From the NCBI GenBank assembly GCA_002009975.1, contig MTLP01000005.1:1-50306 (forward strand): a stretch of 50,306 bases of DNA. The letters are read 5' to 3'. How positions within the stretch are numbered: the first letter of the stretch is position 1; the number at the start of each line of letters is the position of its first letter. This stretch comes from Thermococcus sp. JdFR-02 (GTDB lineage: Archaea > Methanobacteriota_B > Thermococci > Thermococcales > Thermococcaceae). Positions 43,894 through 49,407 of the stretch are shown piece by piece. The position numbers and the translations under genes were made by a program. The notes below the pieces were generated by a model. It had not been told where the DNA came from and did not search any database. It saw only the letters and a list, made by a program, of their open reading frames with translations.

Positions 43894-44895
43894 TCAGTTG
43901 TCTTTTTTGAGTTCTTTGTATTCGTAGGACACGCCTTCATCAACGATTGTATAAACTTCACTTGATCCTGTTTCATAATGCATTATAGGTTTGTCAAGTA
44001 GCTCAAAGGCTTTTCTTAAATCATCTTTTGTAGCTAATGCTATTTTTTTGTCAACTCTGTTTGGAATCCCTTCGATTATATACTGTCTCAAATCCTTTAA
44101 CTCGTCTTTCGGAGCTTTTCCTTTTGCGGTATACACCATGCCAAAGAGAGGTATACCCGTAAAGAGCATTAACACTGAGAACAATATTTTTCCTGTTCTA
44201 ACTTCTACAGACCTCCCAAGAAATGTTAAGAAATTTTGCTGTTCTTTGCTTTCAATTATGTTTTTTCTTGTAACTTTCTCCTCATTTGTGAAGTATATAA
44301 GTCCAGTTGCTGTGTCTTCAACAAGACCGATACTTTGAGTAAAGTCCTCTAGTATATTTTCATTGGCAATGATTCCAGAGGGTTTTGTATGAAATACTAA
44401 CCTCACTTCACGTGAAAGTCTTGGAATTTTAAGCGTCTGCTTTATCTCCGCGGATCTTGCATTAATGACTTGTAAGTTGAAGAAAACTGCTTCACTTGCG
44501 GTTCCATTCTTTAAAATTCCTTCTTTCTTTAAGATGCTTTCATCCCAAAGCACTATCTTCTCGTTCCCCTTTGAGACGTAGTAGATTGTGATAATCTCAA
44601 GCGTGTAATTTCCGTTAACATTTTCTCTAGGAGAAAAAGAGTACCTATAAACTCCTGAAATGTTTTTAGTTATATCTCGAGGGTAATATTCCATGCTTTG
44701 AGGGGTTTTGTAAAGTGAATTATTTGAGAAAATACCCTCATGATGAAAAACACCTTTCTGCGTATAGCTTCCTACTGCTGTATTTACCATTAAAACTGAG
44801 TCCTTTTGAAACGCCATAATTGTTAGCGTTGAAAAAGATAGAAAAAGAAACAAAAGAGTTCCTAGCGCGATTTTTTTCTTTTTAACTTTTTTCAT
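43894..44895 (-). CDS. DUF5305-like membrane protein of the TasA-like cluster
   Basis: The 333-residue protein has an N-terminal membrane helix (IALGTLLFLFLSFSTLTIMAF), an extracellular beta domain of about 190 residues, a second helix (GKILFSVLMLFTGIPLFGMVY) and a cytoplasmic tail of 85 residues. The layout (outside domain between two helices) fits DUF5305. It is the last gene of the cluster, 22 bp after the DUF11-like gene. A role in assembly or anchoring of the secreted proteins is inferred from position. Confidence 0.75.
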   Translation of the reverse strand: MKKVKKKKIALGTLLFLFLSFSTLTIMAFQKDSVLMVNTAVGSYTQKGVFHHEGIFSNNSLYKTPQSMEYYPRDITKNISGVYRYSFSPRENVNGNYTLEIITIYYVSKGNEKIVLWDESILKKEGILKNGTASEAVFFNLQVINARSAEIKQTLKIPRLSREVRLVFHTKPSGIIANENILEDFTQSIGLVEDTATGLIYFTNEEKVTRKNIIESKEQQNFLTFLGRSVEVRTGKILFSVLMLFTGIPLFGMVYTAKGKAPKDELKDLRQYIIEGIPNRVDKKIALATKDDLRKAFELLDKPIMHYETGSSEVYTIVDEGVSYEYKELKKDN

Positions 44896-44917
44896 TTTTT
44901 AAACACCTAGTTTAATC

Positions 44918-45829
44918 TCAATTATCCGTCACAATAACAGTTATAGGGCTTGTGACAATCCCATAATTTGTTAGATTTGCACCATCATTTAGGTTGTAGA
45001 TACCGGGGCTTGTGTACCCTATGTGACAGCAAGATTGGTGTCCACAGTGACATTTTTCTCTTGTAGTGACAGTAATGTTCATATGAGCTGAAGTACCTGC
45101 AGGGAGATCAAATGTCCATGTTATCTTTGTTGCGCCTAGACCATGACAATTCCCCATTTTAACAGCTGTATAGTTTCCTACACTTACTGAAGTCTGAGCT
45201 AAGTTCACTTCAAGTTCAGCTGGAATTGTATCCTTTACTATCAAGTTGTTTTTATCTCCACCATTGTTTACGACGGTTATTCTCATCATCCAAGTTTGGT
45301 TTGTATTTACTGGAAAGACCGTTGGTCCTGATATTAGATCCTTTGTTATTGTAATTAGAGGTCCGATGACATTAATCCTTAGAGGGCATGTGCTGACTTC
45401 TGCATCCCCCGTGTTCCAAGTTCCATAGAGAGTTAGAGGAACCTCATAATCCCCTGTGACATCACCAGCACTTATGACTCCAGTGAAAGTGTACGTATCT
45501 TGATCATATAAGAGAATCCACTCACTCTCAATGTCTACATCAAGTGAGGGAGGTAGGGATGAATAATCTCCTTCAATTCTAAGGTTTAAGTTCTCTCCAA
45601 GTTTGTTTTCTACTGATAGGACATCAAAAACTCCTGACGAATTAGCTTCTATAGTCACAATGTTTGACGAATTTTGATACTCACAGTAATAGCTTATGTA
45701 TGAGGAATTTCCAGCGACGATATCAATTTGGAAATTCCGTTTGCTATCATATTCTCTGAAAGTTCCACTGGAGCTAATTAGTATTAAAAAGCTTATTGCT
45801 AACAGAAATAGTAGTTTAAGTATTTTCAT
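44918..45829 (-). CDS. Secreted DUF11-like protein with a Cys/His-rich loop
   Basis: The 303-residue protein has a signal peptide (LKLLFLLAISFLILISSSG) and two beta-sandwich regions. The second resembles DUF11/CARDB domains: TVVNNGGDKNNLIVKDTIPA, then TWTFDLPAGTSAHMNITV. An unusual CHCGHQSCCH motif sits in that domain. There is no C-terminal anchor. The gene overlaps the signal peptidase gene by 4 bp, so it is part of the same transcript. It could be a tip, adhesin or cross-linking component of the fibre. Confidence 0.75.
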   Translation of the reverse strand: MKILKLLFLLAISFLILISSSGTFREYDSKRNFQIDIVAGNSSYISYYCEYQNSSNIVTIEANSSGVFDVLSVENKLGENLNLRIEGDYSSLPPSLDVDIESEWILLYDQDTYTFTGVISAGDVTGDYEVPLTLYGTWNTGDAEVSTCPLRINVIGPLITITKDLISGPTVFPVNTNQTWMMRITVVNNGGDKNNLIVKDTIPAELEVNLAQTSVSVGNYTAVKMGNCHGLGATKITWTFDLPAGTSAHMNITVTTREKCHCGHQSCCHIGYTSPGIYNLNDGANLTNYGIVTSPITVIVTDN

Positions 45830-46902
45830 AGTCTCATACCCCTTCTTATTCTTTTAAAAATCCCAAAAGTTCCAGAACGATGAACCCGATATCTAATTAC
45901 CTCTTCATTTCCAACTCCTGCAATGAGATGTAACAGCAAAAACAACAATGCAGCTTCTCCAATATATGCGATAAATGGCAGATATGGACTTTTGGAGTAA
46001 AGAACGCCAATTATGCTAATTGGGACTATTGGAAGGTAAGCATACACATCGATTTTTTCAGTAAAGAGTCTTGTTTCCTTTGGAACATTAATAGTTAATT
46101 TAATGTCCTTGTTTTCCCCACTAGAAATTTTGAAGGAATTCTCTCCATTTATCTGTATTCTGTCGCCCCGTGGTTCTATGAAGTAATAAAATGGATAAAC
46201 CGCTCTGTTTTGCAAAGAAAGTTCTTTTTCAAAGGTAGATTCCGGAAGATACCATCCCTCATTTTGTCCTCCCGCAAGAGTTGAGGAATATCCAAATGAC
46301 AAAGTTCCCCAAGACAGCATCATTGAGAGAATCAAAATTGCTATTGTCAGAGCAGATGTGATTATATAAACAGTTTTAAATTTAATTTTGATAACTTTCT
46401 GTCTTTTTCTTTTCTTCTCATTTTTGTCGTTAAGTGTTACCAAAACACCTCCAAAAATTAAGAGTGCTGCAGCAACATAAAAGTTTGATATTTTATTTGA
46501 TATCGTCTTAACATAACCTCCAACTTTTGGCACCGTTAGAGGTGTCCCTTTAATAACTATAACCTTGCCAATTATATCTTTTGATTTTATCTCAGGATTT
46601 TTGCCCTCTTGTTGATCTGTAGCGATATTGTTATCCCCTTTTGTTATATATCCTTCAGCCCCTTTTGCATAAATTCTGTGTACCGTCCACTGACCTTTCA
46701 TATTATAAACGATTATATCTCCAACATCTCCTTTTGACAGTGGATTTATGAAGAAAAAGTCTCCTTTTTTCAAGGTTGGATTCATGCTGTCCGAATAAAC
46801 ATATGATACAAGAACGGGCATATCCAAAATAAATCCTGCTATAGATGCAAACAAAAATACAACTATGATCCCTGTTAAAACTCCTTCAAGTATCTTTATC
46901 AT
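45826..46902 (-). CDS. Signal peptidase I, SipW/ER-type (S26B), with a long C-terminal extension
   Basis: The 358-residue protein opens with a membrane helix, the catalytic serine in YVYSDSMNPTLKKGD, the box with histidine in QWTVHRIYAKG (archaeal/ER/SipW enzymes use His, not Lys), and ITKGDNN. After residue 150 come two more helices and an extra beta domain between them that ordinary signal peptidases lack. In Bacillus, SipW processes TasA. Here the enzyme lies between three TasA-like genes and the DUF11-like gene and probably matures them. Confidence 0.9.
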   Translation of the reverse strand: MIKILEGVLTGIIVVFLFASIAGFILDMPVLVSYVYSDSMNPTLKKGDFFFINPLSKGDVGDIIVYNMKGQWTVHRIYAKGAEGYITKGDNNIATDQQEGKNPEIKSKDIIGKVIVIKGTPLTVPKVGGYVKTISNKISNFYVAAALLIFGGVLVTLNDKNEKKRKRQKVIKIKFKTVYIITSALTIAILILSMMLSWGTLSFGYSSTLAGGQNEGWYLPESTFEKELSLQNRAVYPFYYFIEPRGDRIQINGENSFKISSGENKDIKLTINVPKETRLFTEKIDVYAYLPIVPISIIGVLYSKSPYLPFIAYIGEAALLFLLLHLIAGVGNEEVIRYRVHRSGTFGIFKRIRRGMRL

Positions 46903-47396
46903 TCACATGCACCTTCAAAAGCTTGTATTTTAATTGTTCCAGAGGCATTTCCAATGTTAAAGTTTGTAGTGTTTATTTGCATCCCAATATTCATAATTTC
47001 GTTGGCTCCGAGAGTTATTGCAATGCTTTCACTTGGATTATTATCTAAGTAGTAAAATTTCAATCCAGTCATTTGAGATGTTACAATTACGCAGATAACA
47101 TCTGCTCCGGTTTTAGTTACATTATTTTCAACAAACATAACATCATCGAAAGTGTAAGTAGAATCCTTACTAAGTCCTTCCCCATAGTTGGGATAAAGAG
47201 GACTTTGTGAGCTTATATCAATTGTTAAGTTCTCTCCGTGATAGAGAAAAGCATAGGGAGGAAGTGGTGTTTCAATATTATCCGGAGTATCAGAAACATT
47301 CCCATCAAAGGCATAAGAAATTGGAATAGGCTTACTAACACTAATTCCAAAGAATAACATGAATACAATGATTAATAATGCGATTTTTATGTTCAT
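46899..47396 (-). CDS. DUF1102 TasA-like secreted protein 3
   Basis: I start at ATG 47396 (165 residues) because GGAGAG lies just upstream. A signal peptide (IALLIIVFMLFFGISVSK) precedes a single beta-sandwich domain with the family blocks ETPLPPYAFLYHGENLTIDI, YPNYGEGLSKDSTYTFDDVM and VICVIVTSQMTGLKFYYL. Its C-terminus ends in GACE. It is the most divergent of the three and lacks the DDNELIDLTP motif of the others. It overlaps the signal peptidase gene by 4 bp. Confidence 0.82.
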   Translation of the reverse strand: MNIKIALLIIVFMLFFGISVSKPIPISYAFDGNVSDTPDNIETPLPPYAFLYHGENLTIDISSQSPLYPNYGEGLSKDSTYTFDDVMFVENNVTKTGADVICVIVTSQMTGLKFYYLDNNPSESIAITLGANEIMNIGMQINTTNFNIGNASGTIKIQAFEGACE

Positions 47397-47473
47397 TGTT
47401 TTTTCTCTCCACAAAGTTAAGGTATTATGAAGAGCAAAGGCTCTTCCAAATCTTCAAAATTCTAGTATTTTCA

Positions 47474-48019
47474 CTATGGGCATGCGCCAGCAACTGCTTC
47501 TATGTTCATTTGTGTTTGGTATGATCCCAAGCTCATGTTTGTATTGTCGAATATAAATCCGATCTTAACTGGACTTCCATGATTTACTGTAAAGGTTATG
47601 CTATCACTTGGACCAGCTGTTGGAGCGTCATAATCACCTGCAAATATTTCAACATCGTATGCTCCTGCAACGCTAATTGTTACACAAATTGGGTAAGCAG
47701 TTTTATTGTTTTCCCAAAGGTCGTTACTGACTTCAAACATTTCCTCAAAGACATAGGTTGTGTTTGGGCTTAATCCAGTTCCTCCCCAAGCAGGTCTATT
47801 TGGGTTGTACTGACCGATGTCAATGTAAAGTTTTCCACCGCTCAGCCTTGCATATGGCTGGATTGGAGTTAAGTCGATGAGTTCGTTGTCGTCTGCAACT
47901 ATTGCAACTGTAATGTCTCTCTCGGCTTCGTAATATCTAAAGTTAGCGCCTGCGCCAACTGCTAAAACCATCCCTATTAGAAGTAGGGCTAAACCAATAA
48001 GTTTATTCATTTTTCTCAA
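47474..48019 (-). CDS. DUF1102 TasA-like secreted protein 2
   Basis: The 181-residue precursor has a signal peptide ending VLAVGAGA, then NFRYYEAERDITVAIVADDN as mature N-terminus, followed by ELIDLTPIQPYARLSGGKLY and GGTGLSPNTTYVFEEMFEVS. It ends GACP. In TasA and the archaeal bundling pilin AbpA the N-terminal strand of one subunit completes the next, so the segment after GAGA is the candidate donor strand. It is 16 bp downstream of protein 1 and clearly its paralogue. Confidence 0.85.
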   Translation of the reverse strand: MRKMNKLIGLALLLIGMVLAVGAGANFRYYEAERDITVAIVADDNELIDLTPIQPYARLSGGKLYIDIGQYNPNRPAWGGTGLSPNTTYVFEEMFEVSNDLWENNKTAYPICVTISVAGAYDVEIFAGDYDAPTAGPSDSITFTVNHGSPVKIGFIFDNTNMSLGSYQTQMNIEAVAGACP

Positions 48020-48035
48020 TCCTCCTCAAAATTCA

Positions 48036-48626
48036 CTATTGTCCGCACTTTCCTACGAGCTCTGCTGGTTCTGTTCCTAGTCTGTAAGCCTTAATGCTCA
48101 TGTGCTCATCCCAAACGTCTCCTGGGGTGTCACCGTCTGTACTGATATCTATTCCCACTTTAACTGCATCGTTTGGACCAACAACAAAACAAACGTCTTC
48201 GTCTGCTACATCTGAAGAACTAACGACTGTTCCGTTTGCAACTTCATGAACGTCTCCTTCGTGTCCATAGAATTCAATTCCAGTAACACTTGAAGTTATT
48301 CTGACAACTATTGTCATATTGTCTTCCCAAAGATCATTGCTGACTTCAAAGACCTCATCAAAGTTATATTCTGCTGATGGACTTATGCCGTCCCCATATC
48401 CTGGATAGTTTGGATTCTCAGTTGAGAAGTCTATCACTAAAACACCTGCATCACTTATGTATGCATATGGTTGAAGTGGCGTTAAGTCAATAAGTTCATT
48501 GTCGTCCGGAACAATTTCCCAATGGACGCTTCTGCTGGCATTGTAGTCACTAAAATTTGCCCCCGCTCCAAGAACGAGCCCAAAGGCAACTAAAAGACCA
48601 AAAATACCAAGTATTATTTTTCTCAT
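48036..48626 (-). CDS. DUF1102 TasA-like secreted protein 1 (probable major subunit)
   Basis: The 196-residue precursor has a signal peptide (GIFGLLVAFGLVLGAGA), the mature start NFSDYNASRSVHWEIVPDDN, and the shared blocks ELIDLTPLQPYAYISDAGVL and FEVSNDLWEDNMTIVVRITS. The C-terminus ends VGKCGQ. It is acidic and rich in Asn and Asp. As first gene after the operon promoter it is the likeliest main fibre protein. GGAGATG precedes the ATG. Confidence 0.86.
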   Translation of the reverse strand: MRKIILGIFGLLVAFGLVLGAGANFSDYNASRSVHWEIVPDDNELIDLTPLQPYAYISDAGVLVIDFSTENPNYPGYGDGISPSAEYNFDEVFEVSNDLWEDNMTIVVRITSSVTGIEFYGHEGDVHEVANGTVVSSSDVADEDVCFVVGPNDAVKVGIDISTDGDTPGDVWDEHMSIKAYRLGTEPAELVGKCGQ

Positions 48627-48693
48627 TTTTTCATCTCCTTAAAAAATTTCGAGCCCTCATACAAGGGCATCATCTAGAGAGTTAGTCATTGTT

Positions 48694-48702
48694 GTATATA
48701 GG
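48694..48702 (-). promoter_or_regulatory. TATA box of the TasA-like operon
   Basis: On the minus strand CCTATATAC (complement of 48694-48702) lies about 70 bp upstream of the first DUF1102 ATG, predicting a leader of about 45 nt. The leader contains a small hairpin, GCCCT (48653-48657) with AGGGC (48664-48668). No operator is evident by eye. Confidence 0.55.
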
Positions 48703-48733
48703 TAATGAGAACAATACTGGGGGTAATGGAGAA

Positions 48734-49180
48734 TTACTCTCCGTTTTTTAGGAGTAAATGCTCCTTTGATCTGTGAATTATTGAGAGACTTAGGAAAACC
48801 ATTGATATGAAAACTCCATGCCAGTTCGTTATGGCATAGCTTATAATTGCTGAACTTAAAGAAAGAAGAATATAGAAAGTTGACCATCGAATGTCATTTT
48901 CTCTTACAATTTCCAAATAAACACTCACATTTTCAGGAACCTTGATAAGTCGAACTGTTCCTGCCCTATAGGTTATTACTCCTTCTCTTTCCATCTTAGG
49001 GAGATGGGTTTGGATTAAACTTACATATATGCTCTTTCTATGCTTCCTATCAGTCTTACCTTCCCTCTCAGCTATGTACTCAACTACATCCCTAAGATCC
49101 GCATACCCACTTGATTTTTGAAGAAACTCTACCACAAACATTCTTCTATCGTTTCCAAGGAGCATTGCTGAAGTATTCAT
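48734..49180 (-). CDS. DUF7344-type winged-helix regulator with C-terminal membrane helices
   Basis: The 148-residue protein has the DUF7344 pattern known from haloarchaea: LGNDRRMFVVEFLQKSSG, LRDVVEYIAEREGK, then KSIYVSLIQTHLPKMEREGV and a wing. Two membrane helices (FYILLSLSSAIISYAI and VFISMVFLSLSII) follow, so it is a membrane-tethered DNA-binding protein. It lies just upstream of the TasA-like operon on the same strand and is the obvious candidate regulator. Its ATG overlaps the stop of the gene before it. Confidence 0.82.
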   Translation of the reverse strand: MNTSAMLLGNDRRMFVVEFLQKSSGYADLRDVVEYIAEREGKTDRKHRKSIYVSLIQTHLPKMEREGVITYRAGTVRLIKVPENVSVYLEIVRENDIRWSTFYILLSLSSAIISYAITNWHGVFISMVFLSLSIIHRSKEHLLLKNGE

Positions 49181-49407
49181 TATGTTGACCTCAATCTATA
49201 ATGCTTTCTGTGATTGCTGTTGATATAATATGCCTCAATTATCTCCTTTCCAATAAGGTCTCTTAGAACCCTTTCGACCTTTTGTCGTGTGCAGGGTATG
49301 CCTCGTTCATTTAGTCTTCGTGTAAGAATTGCTACTGTAGAAGAGTCCTCCATACTTAAAATATTAATAATCTCATGTATAATAGATGCTGTCATCATAT
49401 TTATCAT
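49180..49407 (-). CDS. Small winged-helix DNA-binding protein
   Basis: The 75-residue protein is one winged-helix domain: IIHEIINILSMEDSSTVAIL, TRRLNERGIPCTRQKVERVL, and a wing YYINSNHRKHYRL. GGTGAG precedes the ATG at 49407, and a BRE/TATA pair (TAGAAAA, GTATTTATAA at 49441-49450 on the minus strand) gives a near-leaderless message. It is translationally coupled to the membrane-tethered regulator and may act with it on the fibre operon. Confidence 0.75.
   Translation of the reverse strand: MINMMTASIIHEIINILSMEDSSTVAILTRRLNERGIPCTRQKVERVLRDLIGKEIIEAYYINSNHRKHYRLRST

Follow-up and report, generated by a model that had tools for sequence, protein, structure and literature searches.

A conserved eight-gene operon of Thermococcales that probably encodes a TasA/AbpA-like surface fibre

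Positions 43894-49407 of a 50,306-nucleotide stretch of Thermococcus sp. JdFR-02 DNA (contig MTLP01000005.1; this whole stretch is the window, and all gene coordinates given here are window positions) hold an eight-gene leftward operon. Its products very probably form a thin surface fibre whose subunits are joined by donor-strand exchange, as in the TasA fibres of Bacillus biofilms, the archaeal bundling pilus made of AbpA and the haloarchaeal Tafi pilus. This reading, drawn from sequence comparison and structure models, is favoured because the operon is constant and its DUF1102 proteins and signal peptidase co-occur and decay jointly; because D1, D2 and g2, three of its secreted products, share an N-terminal arm motif with Phe at position P2' and are linked by profile searches, next to a dedicated Ser-His signal peptidase as in the TasA-SipW pair; and because the model of D2 combines a floppy arm with a beta-sandwich that matches AbpA and then the Tafi pilin, with a profile match to that pilin and matches of the wider family to the Taf families. 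The operon is widespread, nearly universal in Thermococcales and, as far as we found, uncharacterised.

Gene content of the operon

A first-pass annotation of the window had proposed a leftward cluster of three DUF1102 secreted proteins, a SipW/ER-type (endoplasmic reticulum-type) signal peptidase, a DUF11-like secreted protein and a DUF5305-like membrane protein, with a two-gene regulator pair just upstream. All eight genes are indeed found, every one of them on the minus strand, and adjacent genes overlap or lie 16-60 bp apart, the sole larger gap being one of 107 bp after the regulators.

49180..49407, minus strand: g8, small regulator of 75 residues, probable winged helix (open reading frame; most Thermococcales loci have a homologue in this position)
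48734..49180, minus strand: g7, DUF7344 helix-turn-helix regulator (PF24035, E 5.4e-19)
48036..48626, minus strand: g6 (D1), DUF1102 pilin-like subunit (PF06510, E 6.9e-54, 182 bits)
47474..48019, minus strand: g5 (D2), DUF1102 pilin-like subunit (PF06510, E 1.5e-53, 181 bits)
46899..47414, minus strand: g4 (D3), divergent member of DUF1102 that lacks the Phe motif (PF06510, E 3.6e-29, 102 bits)
45826..46902, minus strand: g3, signal peptidase I of the Ser-His type, extended by further membrane segments and an apparent immunoglobulin (Ig)-like ectodomain (TIGR02228, 68.3 bits)
44918..45829, minus strand: g2, pilin-like secreted protein carrying DUF11 (E 3.8e-6)
43894..44895, minus strand: g1, DUF5305-like membrane protein (PF17231, E 2.6e-6; two membrane segments)

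D1, D2 and D3 all exceed the Pfam gathering score for DUF1102 (22.2 bits), and g2 passes the cut-off for DUF11 (27.6 bits against 24.6). The match of g1 to DUF5305 extends over 200 of 217 positions at 27.5 bits, 1.5 bits below the gathering score of 29, and because it is a borderline relative scoring under that cut-off the protein is termed DUF5305-like. Of the two regulators, g7 is the single DUF7344 match in its genome, and g8 has no match in Pfam and shows only a faint hint of an ArgR-like helix-turn-helix (E 0.05). Judged by alignment with homologues, translation of D2 probably begins at the ATG at 48010 and that of D3 at the ATG at 47396, and not at the TTG codons upstream of them.

Conservation and joint loss

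A chance grouping of these genes is excluded, because their order recurs in 38 Thermococcales loci and DUF1102 proteins are present in 87 of 94 Thermococcales genomes (72 of the 74 of good quality). The order regulators - D1 - D2 - (D3) - peptidase - g2 - DUF5305-like gene is kept in all 38 of the loci that were fetched, with the exceptions that g8 is absent from some and D3 from many, and that in a few loci a short or diverged g2 is recognised weakly or not at all; the DUF5305-like gene stands at the operon end in all complete loci. A peptidase of the g3 type is likewise found in 72 of the 74 good genomes, and the two that have no DUF1102 protein (G026 and G041) are also the two that have no such peptidase. 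In genome G029 (locus L125, C1:1036000-1050000) the operon decays as a unit: by tblastn, stops interrupt the regulators, D3 and the peptidase, the alignments of g2 and g1 are broken, and D1 and D2 have shrunk to one partial copy. A sample of the wider phylum added a single genome with DUF1102, by a marginal match, and a scan of named genome contigs showed that Archaeoglobus and Geoglobus have this operon too and that Halorubrum coriense has a looser cluster.

Other departures from the standard layout were seen at single loci. The signal peptidase gene of genome G074 is split into two overlapping open reading frames, possibly by a frameshift (L054:5772-6838), and elsewhere an insertion separates the regulator pair from the structural genes, so that the pair is found about 5 kb upstream of D1 (L077:1431-7372).

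An N-terminal arm motif shared by D1, D2 and g2

Directly after the signal peptide, D1 and D2 both carry the sequence GAGA-NFxxYxAxR, and g2 carries SSG-(N/T)FxxYxxxR at the equivalent place, giving all three proteins an arm motif with Phe at P2', as in TasA. Scored by a fixed pattern, the motif is present in 70 of 70 homologues of D1, 69 of 69 of D2 and 56 of 63 of g2. The same pattern occurs in 3 of 65, 1 of 71 and 0 of 59 homologues of other operon proteins, and the background rate is 14 among 772 unrelated open reading frames, or 3 among the 109 having a hydrophobic N-terminus. The predicted donor arms are as follows.

48498..48557, minus strand: predicted N-terminal donor arm of D1, the first 20 mature residues (NFSDYNASR...), placed by motif position and by analogy with the D2 model and TasA
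47885..47944, minus strand: predicted N-terminal donor arm of D2 (NFRYYEAERDITVAIVADDN), placed by the motif and by low predicted local distance difference test (pLDDT) scores
45704..45763, minus strand: predicted N-terminal donor arm of g2 (TFREYDSKR...), placed by the motif and by low pLDDT

The relationship of g2 to the DUF1102 proteins goes beyond the motif. A g2 profile run against its own genome matches, apart from g2, just the N-terminal regions of D2 (E 1.4e-6) and D1 (E 9e-6), and in profile-profile comparison the first domain of g2 aligns with DUF1102 over 144 columns (E 9e-17). With signal peptide and arm removed, the two bodies match at 36% probability (E 4e-4); because the bodies alone match weakly, the strong full-length match is carried mostly by the N-terminal region, and descent of the bodies from a common ancestor is likely rather than established. 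Several relatives have a g2 of just 120-140 residues that stops after the first domain; DUF11 is an optional addition, and the longest forms carry one more domain. On the strength of the shared motif, the profile matches to D1, D2 and DUF1102, and the optional nature of DUF11, g2 is counted by sequence as the fourth of the pilin-like proteins.

D3 departs from this pattern. The Phe motif is missing in essentially all of its homologues, and a conserved V/S-x-A site is found some 18 residues further in (in 27 of the 29 sequences picked up by the pattern). Mature D3 would be armless if cut at that site and membrane-bound if left uncut. The earlier count of three different subunits stands as far as the three DUF1102 proteins are concerned, but it has to be raised to four pilin-like proteins with the addition of g2, and D3 is atypical among them in having no arm motif. 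Among the operon genes, D3 is the one most like a Halorubrum protein (E 2e-13) that also has no Phe motif and that possesses DUF11-like domains and a C-terminal membrane segment, a layout that would fit a role for D3 at the cell-side end of the fibre.

A dedicated signal peptidase

The enzyme encoded by g3 passes the model for archaeal signal peptidase I (TIGR02228, 68.3 bits against a cut-off of 51.85), and its motifs SDSM, TVHR and GDNN, which supply Ser, His and Asp and are kept across homologues, are those of the Ser-His (ER) type. The ER-type part of the initial SipW/ER-type assignment is therefore upheld, and the match to SipW of Bacilli (NF046067) is weak, at 28.2 bits where 190 are required; g3 is accordingly classed with the archaeal signal peptidases I and is likened to SipW in its presumed action. 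It looks dedicated because, apart from it, the genome encodes just a single type I signal peptidase, a plain enzyme of 161 residues. Unlike that enzyme, g3 continues into extra membrane segments with an intervening segment that, judged by eye, resembles an Ig-like ectodomain.

In Bacillus, the dedicated ER-type peptidase SipW, which has a Ser-His dyad, cleaves TasA, a substrate with Phe at P2' (PMC10269814). Substrates with Phe at P2' next to a Ser-His peptidase of their own are, in sequence terms, the same arrangement, and this correspondence supports the suggestion of a TasA- or bundling-pilus-like system that the first-pass annotation had put forward.

Structure models and family matches

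A model of mature D2, built from 67 sequences, has a pLDDT of 84 and a predicted template modelling score (pTM) of 0.80. Its body is a beta-sandwich, and most of residues 1-18 are of low confidence, with pLDDT below 50 at residues 1-9 and 14-18. A structure unlike TasA or AbpA had been named beforehand as an outcome that would speak against a fibre of this type; the best Foldseek match of the model in the PDB is AbpA (7ueg, E 5.9e-4), the only match below 0.001. With VIA-align, AbpA is again first (Z 8.7), followed by the Tafi pilin of Natrinema (Z 8.0), and the subunit of a Sulfolobus thread is also matched (Z 7.4). A profile of the D2 family finds the Tafi pilin as its sole significant match in the PDB (E 2.7e-9, with the next at 0.8). 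In NCBIfam searches of the wider family at E 0.01, TafA is reached by 13 of 67 members and TafE by 8 of 67, and the Taf families are the chief named matches.

The g2 model (pLDDT 88) has a disordered arm as well, with pLDDT below 50 at mature residues 1-15. The closest matches of its first domain are PapD-like, FimC among them, and those of its second are pilin and adhesin domains of Gram-positive bacteria; the g2 profile returned no match in the PDB.

Related systems

Several known filament systems resemble the operon and also differ from it. AbpA, from the bundling pilus of Pyrobaculum calidifontis, shares the beta-sandwich and the N-terminal arm and is the top fold match of D2, at about 10% identity. 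The Tafi pilus of Natrinema sp. J7-2 (9p0a; NCBIfam TafA, TafC, TafE and TafF) is linked by the D2 profile and the second-best fold match, and by the neighbourhood of a TafE-like protein in Halocatena, which stands beside a peptidase, a DUF5305 protein and a regulator as in Thermococcales. No paper on the Tafi pilus or on DUF1102 came up in the literature collection that was searched.

The TasA-SipW-TapA operon of Bacillus subtilis resembles the present one in combining subunits bearing Phe at P2' with a Ser-His signal peptidase of their own (PMC10269814), and TasA fibres use an N-terminal donor strand (PMC9674648). The operon in the window differs in having four pilin-like proteins, a peptidase with an apparent ectodomain, a DUF5305-like protein and other regulators, and sequence comparison of the window proteins gave no match to TasA or TapA. 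The Saci_0406 thread of Sulfolobus acidocaldarius (7pnb) is a strand-complemented filament with a proposed cap that has no acceptor site (PMC9715654), to which g2 may be a parallel. The likeness of its subunit to D2 (Z 7.4) is inside the range of unrelated sandwiches, and unlike D1, D2 and g2 it has an ordinary predicted signal peptidase I site (LVA/DV) with no Phe at P2'.

A related set of regulator, pilin, peptidase and DUF5305 genes recurs in Halobacteria, as judged from gene groups in Halocatena and Halorubrum. In Halocatena salina one stretch encodes a TafE-like DUF1102 protein with TGAFSSVQAER after its signal peptide, a signal peptidase I that aligns with g3 over 302 residues (29%), including part of the ectodomain, a DUF5305 protein with no significant BLASTP match to g1, and, by eye, a DUF7344-like regulator. 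Searches of haloarchaeal plasmids found one Halocatena locus with D2 as the query and no match with the TafE-like protein. In Halorubrum a DUF7344 gene lies among DUF1102-like genes. In Halorubrum coriense, moreover, DUF1102 domains are joined to a beta-helix region and to a PGF-pre-PGF/DUF11 protein bearing a membrane segment at its C-terminus (L106:5670-10006), possibly adhesin and anchor versions.

Weighing the fibre reading

Several results weigh against a donor-strand fibre. The fold scores of D2 are modest (a template modelling score of about 0.4), and the margin is small because an unrelated sandwich, at Z 7.8 against 8.7 for AbpA, ranks right after the Tafi pilin. The fold matches listed for D2 include no TasA entry, an absence that does not amount to a different fold. 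Once the signal peptide is removed the D2 profile no longer finds the Tafi pilin, so that this sequence link rests on signal peptide and arm jointly, and the window proteins score far below the Taf family cut-offs, at best 19.8 bits for TafA (NF052520; cut-off 190) and 16.9 for TafE (NF052522; cut-off 155).

One alternative accepts the fibre and confines it to D1, D2, g2 and the peptidase, with D3, g1 and the regulators only loosely associated and outside the fibre system. The absence of D3 from many relatives, the absence or separation of g7 and g8 in some loci, and a DUF5305 score just under the Pfam cut-off agree with so small a core, which we nevertheless consider rather unlikely: the DUF5305-like gene closes every complete locus, in Halocatena the DUF5305 and DUF7344-like genes adjoin those for DUF1102 and the peptidase, and D3 is itself a DUF1102 protein.

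Slightly less probable again is that the DUF1102 proteins have a common ancestry with TasA-type pilins and do not polymerise, acting as single or membrane-near surface proteins such as envelope adhesins or S-layer partners, with the peptidase as a mere maturase. Such proteins often contain beta-sandwich domains, the scores of several unrelated sandwiches come close to that of AbpA, and in Halorubrum the relatives are joined to beta-helix or membrane-anchored parts. Against this reading stand a conserved arm motif whose arm is disordered in two models (D2 and g2), the presence of several paralogous subunits in one operon, and the fact that the top matches are two solved filament subunits. Finally, a type IV pilus or archaellum-like appendage, which a surface-protein operon in an archaeal group known for such filaments might bring to mind, was rejected as contradicted by the all-beta models with a short flexible arm, by the type I signal peptidase within the operon and by an operon gene content with no secretion ATPase or platform gene.

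Assembly and division of labour

In the donor-strand model, D1, D2 and g2 would be exported via Sec and cleaved by g3 before x-Phe, freeing an N-terminal arm of about 20 residues. The arm would enter the open beta-sandwich of the next subunit, allowing D1 and D2 to polymerise without an ATPase. Having the same arm and optional DUF11 domains, g2 would serve as a minor or terminal subunit, and D3 would be another accessory subunit. At the membrane, g1 and the g3 ectodomain could retain or steer the fibre as it grows, and g7 and g8 could regulate the operon.

A more detailed division of labour can be imagined, although it is offered only tentatively and is itself improbable as a whole. D1 and D2 would both give and take a strand. 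With a first domain that would be a closed, PapD-like sandwich (FimC is among its best matches), g2 would only give one and, together with its DUF11 domains, would cap one end; D3, which would have lost the arm and has a conserved V/S-x-A site behind it, would only take one and would terminate the other. The Ig-like ectodomain of g3 would be a tethered chaperone that receives cut subunits, and an RNA hairpin after D2 would set the ratio of main to minor subunits.

RNA hairpin and upstream elements

The hairpin lies directly 3' of the D2 gene.

47429..47446, minus strand: covarying RNA hairpin with a 7-bp stem and a CTTT loop (covariation)

A GC-rich stem with a mostly NTTT loop is found at this place in 53 of 72 loci, spanning nearly all Thermococcales, and is rare after other genes. 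Five of the 7 pairs are changed on both sides, and the covariation score exceeds those of all 500 shuffles and all slid controls. A covariance model, trained with the window copy included, finds the site in its own genome at E 6e-4, with the next match at 0.12; Rfam has no match there. Because the hairpin sits between D1-D2 and the minor genes, often just before T-rich sequence, it might act by reducing read-through or by shielding the D1-D2 message.

Between the regulators and D1, at 48653-48706 (minus strand), there is a TATA-like CCTATATAC and an inverted repeat, GCCCT-TGTATG-AGGGC, followed by T's; judging from these elements, D1 may be transcribed from a promoter of its own and carry a structured leader. 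Upstream of the operon, the minus strand carries genes for three tRNAs and for 5S rRNA, truncated at the contig end (49766-50306).

Implications

If the donor-strand reading is correct, Thermococcales, a model group of hyperthermophiles, would gain a near-universal surface fibre apart from type IV pili and archaella, and fibres of the TasA type would span Thermococci, Archaeoglobi and Halobacteria with a common set of regulator, subunits, dedicated peptidase and DUF5305 protein. Two families of unknown function, DUF1102 and DUF5305, would thereby be assigned a probable role, and the assembly and ending of a donor-strand fibre without chaperone-usher machinery would become testable.

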